Shown: piece by piece, positions 3,294 to 5,793 of the stretch
How positions within the stretch are numbered: the first letter of the stretch is position 1
Layout: each line of letters begins with the position of its first letter
Source: Spiroplasma endosymbiont of Atherix ibis
GTDB taxonomy: Bacteria; Bacillota_I; Bacilli_A; Mycoplasmatales; Mycoplasmataceae
Assembly (NCBI RefSeq): GCF_964020005.1
Contig: NZ_OZ026474.1
Span: 434,001 to 498,000, forward strand
DNA: 64,000 bases
Reading direction: 5' to 3'
Translations under genes and position numbers: made by a program
The notes under the pieces: model-generated
The model's database searches: none
What the model saw: the letters and a program-made list of their open reading frames with translations, nothing else
Told to the model about the DNA's origin: nothing

Positions 3294-3878
3294 ATGGCAA
3301 CTGCAATGAAAAAACCAGCAGCTAAAAAGACTACTACTAAAAAACCAGATAAAGCTGCTGTTAAGAAAGCTGCTTCAAATAAAAGTAGAGCAGTACATAT
3401 TCAAACTAGAAAGAAACCTAGTGATCCAAAACCAGAAAGAATTATTAATAAAACTATTAAATTAACTGATGGTCAAGAAAAATTCATATGAGAAAAAGCA
3501 GATCCAGTTTCAGCAACAAATGCTTCTATTTATAGACAAGATGTAGCTGGAGCTATTATGAGAGTTAGTGAGCATTGACAAGCTTCAGAATTTGGTTGAG
3601 TTTATAGTTTAATTGATCCAGAAGGAGAAACAGATGATGTAAATAACGTTGTTGCTATGCATTGAATGAATGCAAAAGTTAAACGTAAAGCATTAGAAGC
3701 TTGAACAGCTGTAGTTACAGGTGGAAGAGATATAACAGGTTTATTTAATCAGAAAAAAGAAGTTAAAATTCCTGGTATTCAATTAACAAAATCAAGAAAA
3801 ACAGTTTTATTCCAATCATCAAGAGTAGAACCTAGAAAAGTTAATATTCAAATTAGAACAGTAACTGGCAAAAAATAA
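3294..3878 (+). CDS. HNH-like fold protein with histone-like Lys/Ala tail, catalytic His apparently lost
   Basis: The 194-residue protein starts with about 45 residues of Lys, Ala, Thr and Pro resembling a histone H1 tail (KKPAAKKTTTKKP), then a globular part. The segment IYRQDVAGAIMRVSEH...FGWVYSLIDPEGETDDVNNVVAMHW matches the layout of small HNH-type proteins, which usually read D-x-x-G-x-x-I...yGWeiDHI.P.s.GG.dd..NLq.lHw.N. Here the DH pair is SL, while the later N and HW remain. Inference: a nucleic-acid-binding protein derived from an HNH nuclease, perhaps a nucleoid protein. TGA codons are Trp. It is monocistronic, with its own -10 box and a terminator. Function is not established. Confidence 0.55.
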
Positions 3879-3914: not shown

Positions 3915-3920
3915 TATAAT
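3915..3920 (+). promoter_or_regulatory. -10 box before the structured RNA
   Basis: TATAAT six nucleotides upstream of the first hairpin would start a transcript near 3926, at the foot of the UUCG hairpin. Confidence 0.4.
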
Positions 3921-3924
3921 AAGT

Positions 3925-4047
3925 TTGTCCTTCGGGACACCAAGAATATTTGTTATTCTTTAAGTTTGCGTGAGATTTTAAAAACCGCTCAATAAATAAG
4001 TATTTCCTTTCTCATGCAATTTATAGCGGGTGGGAATATTTTTTTTG
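3925..4047 (+). ncRNA. Candidate structured RNA or leader upstream of miaA
   Basis: This 120-nt stretch is markedly GC-richer and more structured than neighbouring gaps. In order: a perfect TGTCC-TTCG-GGACA hairpin (3926-3939), a 7-bp AAGAATA/TATTCTT hairpin (3942-3960), then two crossing helices, GCGTGAGA (3968-3975) with TCTCATGC (4010-4017) and CCGCT (3985-3989) with AGCGG (4025-4029), an H-type pseudoknot. TATTTCC/GGGAATA (4001-4007/4032-4038) followed by eight T looks like a terminator. miaA starts 35 nt later. It does not match RNase P, tmRNA, SRP RNA, T-box or the common riboswitches I know. It could be a cis-regulator of miaA or an independent small RNA. Confidence 0.45.
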
Positions 4048-4081: not shown

Positions 4082-5005
4082 GTGAATAAAATAATAGTAA
4101 TAGTTGGACCAACCGCTAGTGGTAAAACCGATTTATCAATTAAAATAGCAAAAAAATTTAATGGTGAATGTATTAACTCAGATTCAACACAAATTTTTAA
4201 GGGAACAGATATAGCAACAAATAAAATAACTAAAGAAGAAATGCAAGGAATAAAACATCATTTAATTTCAATAAGAGAGGTTAATGAGAAATATTCTGTA
4301 GCAGATTTTCAAAAAGATGCTAGAAAAAAAATTGATGACATATTGAAAAAAGGTAAAACCCCAATAATTGTTGGAGGTACTGGATTGTATGTTAATGCTG
4401 TTTTAATGAATTACAATTTTGTAAATAAAGATCATATAAAAAATTTTGAACAAAAATATAATCATATTTCAAATGAAGAAATTTGACATATTTTAAATTT
4501 AAAAGATAAAGAAGAGGCAAAAAAAATTTATTTTAATAATAGAAAAAGAGTTATTAGAGCATTAGAAATAATTGAAATTAATAAAGGTATTGAAAAAACA
4601 AAAATTATTAAAAATAATAAAAAATATTTTTATAATAATTTACTAATTATTGGATTATTTCCACAAAGAGAGAAATTATATAGTAGAATAGATAATAGGG
4701 TATTTATTTTGACGGAACAAGGTTTTTTTAAAGAAATTGAAAATGCTTACAAAGCAAATAATTTTAATAAAAAGGCTCAAGCTCTTAAATGCATAGGCGG
4801 ACCAGAAATTATAAGATATCTTGAAAAAGAAATTACTTATGATGAATGTATAAAATTAATGCAAAAAAATAATAGGCATTATGCAAGAAGGCAATTAACT
4901 TGATTTAAAAATCAGTTAGAAAATATTAAATGATTTGAACATAGTTATGAAAATTATGATCAAATTACAGATGAAATAGTTGATTATATCAAACTAAATA
5001 TTTAG
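4082..5005 (+). CDS. miaA: tRNA dimethylallyltransferase MiaA
   Basis: Transfers dimethylallyl from DMAPP to A37 of tRNAs that read UNN codons. 307 residues, normal length. The P-loop GPTASGKT is at residues 9-16, NSDSTQIFKGTDIATNK holds the catalytic Asp, and GTGLYVNAVL, KRVIRALEI and the C-terminal IGGPEIIRYLE, RHYARRQLTWF segments are present. The start is GTG behind AGAAAGG; no upstream ATG is in frame. TGA codons are Trp. It lies directly downstream of the structured RNA candidate. Confidence 0.95.
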
Positions 5006-5040: not shown

Positions 5041-5793
5041 ATGTTATCTGTATACGAGCGTGTAGAGAACTTAATTAAGGACAATAAAAATACTACTTTT
5101 AAATTAATAGGAAAGCAAATTCTTGCTGACTGATCAGTTGGAATTTTTAAAACTCAAAATGAGATTAGTGAATCTTGTTTTGTTTCTTTAGCAACAGTCA
5201 CACAATTTGCAAAAGCATGTTTGTGTGAAGGTTATAAAGAACTTTCTATTAGATTAAAAGTTGAGTATGAAAATGTTATGCAAAATCAGGCAAAAAGTGT
5301 TATTGGAAATGAAATAGAGCAAGTTGGAATGAGAGCGGTCATATGCCAATGAGCAAATGAAAATGATGATTTTTTAATTGATTTAGCTAATAAAATTAAT
5401 GAAAAAAGAAAAGTTTGAATCTGTCCATCATATCAATCAATGTATCCAGCTAAATTTTTAGAAGATGTGTTGATAAATATTGGAATTCAAACAAAAATAA
5501 TTGATATGTCTTTTAATTTAGAAATAGGAAAACATTTGGAGTTTAATAATGAATTAATAGTTATTTTACTAACAGGAAGAGATACTGAAACAGTAGTAAT
5601 TGCTTTAGAATATCTTCTAAAAGGTAATAACGATCTTTACATTATAACTACTCCAAGTAATATATCAGAATTTCCTCAAATAAGAGAATTAAAACATATG
5701 CTTATAAATTTTCAAGATAATAATTTTTTTTATAAGTATAGATGTTATGCATTAATTACATTGTTCTTTGCATTAAGTGAAAAAATAAATTAA
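5041..5793 (+). CDS. MurR/RpiR-family transcriptional regulator
   Basis: The 250-residue protein has the RpiR layout: an N-terminal helix-turn-helix of about 75 residues (SVYERVENLIKDN...QNEISESCFVSLATVTQFAKACLCEGYKELS), then a SIS-type sugar-phosphate-binding domain with strands such as VWICPSYQSM and LIVILLTGRDTETVVIALEYL. These proteins usually control sugar-phosphate or amino-sugar genes. GGAG precedes ATG at 5041. It stands alone between miaA and tRNA-Gly, so no target is implied by position. Confidence 0.8.

Follow-up and report, generated by a model that had tools for sequence, protein, structure and literature searches.

A structured RNA with a predicted triple-crossing fold upstream of miaA in Spiroplasma

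To our knowledge, few structured regulatory RNAs have been catalogued in Mollicutes. In a 64-kb stretch of the genome of the Spiroplasma endosymbiont of Atherix ibis (64,000 nt in all, hereafter the window), an initial annotation described a promoter box, hairpins and crossing helices ahead of the tRNA-modification gene miaA, and proposed either a small RNA or a switch controlling that gene. The locus raises two questions: whether the structured RNA of ~120 nt (window 3927-4046) is real, and whether it acts on miaA.

Three crossing helices ahead of miaA

The TATAAT box, UUCG-capped hairpin, 7-bp hairpin and run of eight T residues that had been described are all found in the sequence (Table 1). 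The two crossing helices reported alongside them are borne out by covariation in relatives, the first (3968-3975/4010-4017) being the inner 8 bp of helix A (3966-3975/4010-4019). The terminator-like stem with its T-run is present as well; it is not, however, a separate hairpin but a third helix, C, whose 5' strand falls within the loops of both A and B and whose 3' strand is downstream of the two, such that C crosses A and B. The strands follow the order A B C A' B' C' ("pseudotrefoil", ABCABC), comprise 22 bp in total, and can be seen as an A-C pseudoknot whose two loops are joined by helix B.

Table 1. Positions of the RNA, its promoter box and miaA in the window.
Feature	Position	Strand	Remarks
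-10 promoter box of the RNA, TATAAT	3915..3920	+	TATAAT/TAAAAT-like box in homologues
Hairpin 1, 5' cap GTCC-TTCG-GGAC (cUUCGg)	3927..3938	+	In all homologues
Hairpin 2, 7 bp, AAGAATA/TATTCTT	3942..3960 (3942-3948/3954-3960)	+	Kept with other sequence in g6 and g8
Helix A, 5' strand	3966..3975	+	Pairs with 4010-4019; 9-10 bp; compensatory changes
Helix A, 3' strand	4010..4019	+	Pairs with 3966-3975
Helix B, 5' strand CCGCT	3985..3989	+	Pairs with 4025-4029
Helix B, 3' strand AGCGG	4025..4029	+	Pairs with 3985-3989
Unpaired linker from B to C, consensus NWAYAARNNA	3990..3999	+	Conserved length and positions
Helix C, 5' strand GTATTTCC	4000..4007	+	Pairs with 4032-4039; 100% paired
Helix C, 3' strand GGGAATAT	4032..4039	+	Pairs with 4000-4007
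T8 run directly 3' of helix C; putative RNA 3' end/terminator	4039..4046	+	T-rich tract in five genera
miaA (tRNA A37 dimethylallyltransferase), GTG start, genetic code 4	4082..5005	+	TIGR00174, PF01715

Among homologues, the promoter-like box lies ~6-7 nt before hairpin 1 at near-constant spacing, and sequence further upstream varies. The hairpin 1 tetraloop switches between UUCG, UUAG, UUUG and GNRA types (GUAA, GCAA, GAAA, GAGA), while hairpin 2 is maintained with other sequence (e.g., ACGTT/AACGT) in g6 and g8, the latter a genus that includes S. poulsonii and S. phoeniceum. The linker between helices B and C is 10 nt long in all species but one (14 nt), and its positions 3, 5, and 6 are invariant A's.

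Whether such pairing could arise by chance was addressed by scanning the 64-kb window for 22 bp arranged as three mutually crossing helices with loops as long as those of the family. One site was found (two overlapping registers, 3 G-U pairs), compared with 0.03 occurrences per 64-kb strand in 60 dinucleotide shuffles, both cases having 6-7 G-U pairs. By extrapolation, ~1 chance site is expected per genome of such composition, so the single sequence, in which the initial annotation already judged so many pairings unlikely by chance, would alone be only suggestive. The nested fold was only modestly better than shuffles (z = -2.1). Comparative evidence upholds that earlier judgment and confirms, at the level of sequence, that the RNA is real. 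The expected chance site per genome lends something to a reading in which AT-rich intergenic DNA pairs fortuitously next to a commonplace terminator, but the RNA is conserved in six genera and each of its three crossing helices shows compensatory change; this reading is refuted by covariation and we regard it as hardly credible.

In a MAFFT-based alignment of 20 sequences, pairs with changes on both sides were counted against slid registers, giving 11 compensated pairs versus 1-6. A hand-made block alignment across genera (18 distinct sequences and 22 pairs, or 396 cells) had 388 of 396 cells paired and compensatory change at 13 of the 22 pairs (A, 6/9; B, 1/5; C, 6/8). When the 3' strands of this alignment were permuted among species, none of 5,000 permutations was as good for the whole structure and 19 of 5,000 were as good for helix B alone, the weaker result for B arising because this helix hardly varies. 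Since the blocks were placed with the helices in mind, independent support is provided by the MAFFT-based count. Across all column pairs of the block alignment, C ranked first and A second, each with eight consecutive pairs, 100% paired, and with six and five compensated pairs, respectively. Helix B was 99% paired, being fully paired in all genomes but G212, and had one compensation (C-G to T-A in G025). In g8, helices A (GTGTTTGGG/CCCAAGCAC versus TTGCGTGAG/CTCATGCAA) and C (GTAACTCT/AGAGTTAT versus GTATTTCC/GGGAATAT) are nearly wholly different, and both still fully pair. Covariation supports helices A and C firmly and helix B well; the ABCABC pseudotrefoil is the predicted fold, with compensatory change backing each of the three helices on its own.

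An extra pairing between the hairpin 2 loop (3949-3953, TTTGT) and the linker (3992-3996, ATAAA) came third in the helix scan, with double compensation in G011 and consistent single changes in G014 and G027 (by eye). It was rejected, being broken in G006, G024, G025, and G030.

Distribution and linkage to miaA

Sixty genomes of the family were searched, by DNA search and then with a covariance model. The DNA search gave matches in all 20 genomes of g1, the genus of the window, and in several other genera; the covariance model placed the RNA in 40 of the 60 genomes (g1, 20; g8, 14; g12, 3; g6, g7, and g9, 1 each). Copy number is nearly always one per genome, with two in G204 (L064, G204:C1:648000-666000), where a duplication has left two RNA-miaA pairs ~11 kb from each other; in one of them stops and a frame shift disrupt miaA, and the RNA before it is largely intact. 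Outside the family, searches of 320 genomes of the order, 395 of the class, and 392 of the phylum (overlapping samples) gave no match that rose above chance. Weak model matches in six genomes lacking miaA (G032, G217, G201, G031, G219, and G220) proved on individual reading to be devoid of the motif and look like chance. Short-pattern matches in other bacteria and viral contigs were likewise discarded as chance, only Spiroplasma records scoring with the model.

All 39 family genomes with miaA above cut-off also have the RNA. Among the 21 without miaA, the RNA occurs in a single draft (G025) and 20 have neither; the family's other genera without miaA are also without the RNA. The gene ispH makes DMAPP, the substrate of MiaA, and its distribution is the same as that of the RNA and miaA except in G212; searches of G212 and of draft G025 returned no ispH. 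G212 retains miaA without a detected ispH, which may mean that the i6A pathway there is in decay or receives an external supply. MiaA has been lost repeatedly in Mollicutes (PMC4014445). The joint absence of RNA and miaA may stem from only a few loss events.

The link to miaA drawn in the initial annotation extends well beyond the window. A leader should keep its place immediately 5' of one gene, in the same orientation, as the surroundings change, and in 38 of the 40 RNA-bearing genomes (all but G212 and G025) miaA is indeed the next gene 3' of the RNA on the same strand, while the genes upstream of the RNA differ among g1, g6, g8, g9, and g12. In many g1 species just 17-40 nt separate the end of the model from the miaA start (17 in G006, 23 in G016); this leaves no room for a separate promoter, and miaA must be transcribed through the RNA there. 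In species with longer gaps, pairing is possible between the U-rich sequence 3' of the knot and A-rich sequence immediately upstream of the miaA ribosome site (loci L034, L041, L042, L044, L048, L049, L075, L076, and L080; e.g., TTTTTTGTTTTTTTAA/TTAAAAAAACAAAAAA in L048), a candidate extra hairpin with a possible effect on miaA translation.

In the window, the miaA product scored 257.6 bits against TIGR00174 (cut-off 148.65) and also matched PF01715. Upstream of the RNA is an ORF (3294-3878) encoding a conserved 194-aa protein with a Lys/Ala-rich N-terminus, for which no Pfam or NCBIfam match was found. The gene after miaA (5041-5793) has a sub-threshold match to the RpiR-type helix-turn-helix (22.9 bits; cut-off 28.3).

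Leader of miaA or self-standing RNA

With the fold established by covariation, a single copy in nearly every genome, a fixed place before miaA and, in many species, no room for another promoter, the reading we favor, held with about even confidence, is that the RNA is a promoter-proximal 5' leader controlling miaA, probably by termination at the U-run. Transcription would start at the TATAAT promoter of the RNA itself, helix C forming beside the U-run would end most transcripts, and read-through, modulated by whatever stabilizes or prevents the knot, would yield miaA mRNA. That the U-run terminates transcription and that this termination is regulated is what we infer; MiaA protein, DMAPP, or tRNA are our guesses at the signal. 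A leader is the best reading because it explains the adjacency to miaA despite changing upstream genes, the co-occurrence, and the short gaps in g1; covariation, the drift of the G212 copy (see below), and the distribution of ispH were also counted for it. Features of an expression platform are mixed: a T-rich tract follows helix C in five genera (g1, g6, g7, g9, and g12) and is missing in g8, and no conserved competing (antiterminator) helix emerged from the scan of all column pairs in the block alignment. Counted against a leader were the absent antiterminator helix, the loss of the U-run in g8 together with the separate signals found there, the RNA of G025, and the few loss events that may underlie the co-occurrence.

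The g8 and G025 cases bear on a rival reading, that of a self-standing small RNA that has a promoter and terminator to itself and acts in trans, its target being a protein or mRNAs and miaA a mere neighbor or pathway partner, which we rate a serious contender that falls short of probable. A -10 box and a putative 3' terminator of its own accompany the RNA in all lineages, and both its stable tetraloop cap and its compactness are features commonly seen in stable RNAs. Several g8 species have a distinct terminator hairpin and a promoter-like TTGAAA-N16-TAAAAT in the interval from the RNA to miaA, so that the g8 RNA looks like its own transcription unit. The RNA is also retained without any detectable miaA in draft G025 (85% complete), in which the stretch from the RNA to tRNA-Gly lacks both miaA and the RpiR-like gene, miaA was found nowhere in the draft, and helices A, B, and C, which carry compensatory changes, are unbroken. 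This favors a trans role, or a recent loss of miaA, or its relocation to an unassembled part.

The RNA of G212, whose retention without an adjacent miaA likewise counts for a self-standing RNA, also lends itself to the opposite argument. There the two were parted by an IS-associated rearrangement; a thyA-like gene now follows the RNA (153.7 kb) and a transposase-like gene lies upstream of miaA (200.6 kb). The divergence of the G212 RNA from its relatives is roughly double that of pairs with comparable MiaA distance (0.06-0.08 versus 0.02-0.04), and its helix B has an A-A mismatch. Such drift is as expected if the function of the RNA depended on a neighboring miaA, and the greater change after parting favors a cis role. 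This apparently relaxed constraint speaks against a self-standing small RNA, as do an adjacency to miaA that outlasts many rearrangements on the other side, an otherwise perfect co-occurrence, and the many g1 species in which miaA is transcribable only through the RNA. At the level of sequence, evidence is present for both a small RNA and a switch, the two options offered by the initial annotation.

Should the RNA be a leader, a special case would be a riboswitch that responds to a small molecule, either an isoprenoid precursor (DMAPP/IPP) or a metabolite related to it, and acts on miaA. A compact fold with several pseudoknots, an A-rich strand that is unpaired and invariant, and a distribution that tracks ispH and miaA would fit, but the RNA occurs as a single copy per genome before miaA and not before genes of DMAPP synthesis, G212 has the RNA and miaA with no ispH, and the ligand is purely hypothetical; we consider this very unlikely. 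Unlikely, too, is a previously undescribed type of RNA switch, built on a pseudotrefoil core, that would sense the i6A pathway and set MiaA levels. In one version, by autoregulation, MiaA would bind the knot, with helix B (5 bp) and the linker NWAYAAR imitating an anticodon stem with its A36-A37-A38 loop; in another, the knot would sense DMAPP directly. Anticodon mimicry remains speculation because the equivalents of U33 and A38 are not invariant.

The RNA represents an uncatalogued family with an uncommon, all-crossing three-helix fold and strong covariation. It is linked to just one tRNA-modification enzyme, and the pathway that supplies the substrate of this enzyme has a patchy pattern of loss in the group. 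Control of miaA by the RNA, if real, would link tRNA modification to an RNA sensor; whether leader or small RNA, it offers a small natural benchmark for the prediction of RNA folds with multiple crossings.

Comparison with known RNAs and miaA control

The initial annotation recognized no known RNA family, and a search of Rfam 15 with the window and eight homologous loci, divergent homologues included, agrees: no family reached its gathering threshold for the RNA, and only tRNA reached threshold. Matches at relaxed E-values were all far below thresholds and represent weak AT-rich chance matches, mostly over the upstream terminator region. Known riboswitches were set aside for want of an Rfam match, as was a T-box leader, whose partial GGGTGG (4028-4033) is not kept in g8. 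Codon-based attenuation by a leader peptide was rejected as well, there being no shared frame and, in the three g8 members checked, none of at least 12 codons. Our literature search found no publication describing either small RNAs of Spiroplasma or a switch in the leader of miaA.

Like terminating riboswitches and attenuators (preQ1, SAM-II, and T-box leaders), the RNA is structured and pseudoknotted, and its promoter-proximal U-run stands right ahead of a single enzyme gene. Unlike them, it has no Rfam match, contains three mutually crossing helices, has only a hypothetical ligand, and lacks the U-run in g8. Another Mollicute stable RNA, MCS4 of Mycoplasma capricolum (~125 nt), is said to resemble U6 snRNA and is a possible lead. 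It is of similar length; no homologue of the RNA described here turned up in genomes of the genera lacking miaA, among which the M. mycoides group presumably falls.

The A B C A' B' C' order of strands is shared with the pseudotrefoil class of an earlier survey, in which 51 RNAs had the ABCABC pattern compared with 1688 with simple ABAB knots (PMC3390330); ABCABC is an already known but uncommon topological class. Control of miaA through its 5' region also has a precedent. In Escherichia coli, miaA is subject to post-transcriptional control via a long 5' UTR by CsrA/CsrB (PMC12249760). That control is protein and sRNA based, and no such knot is described in the part of that report considered here (PMC12249760), unlike in Spiroplasma; common to both is a control point at the miaA 5' leader, in Spiroplasma a predicted one.
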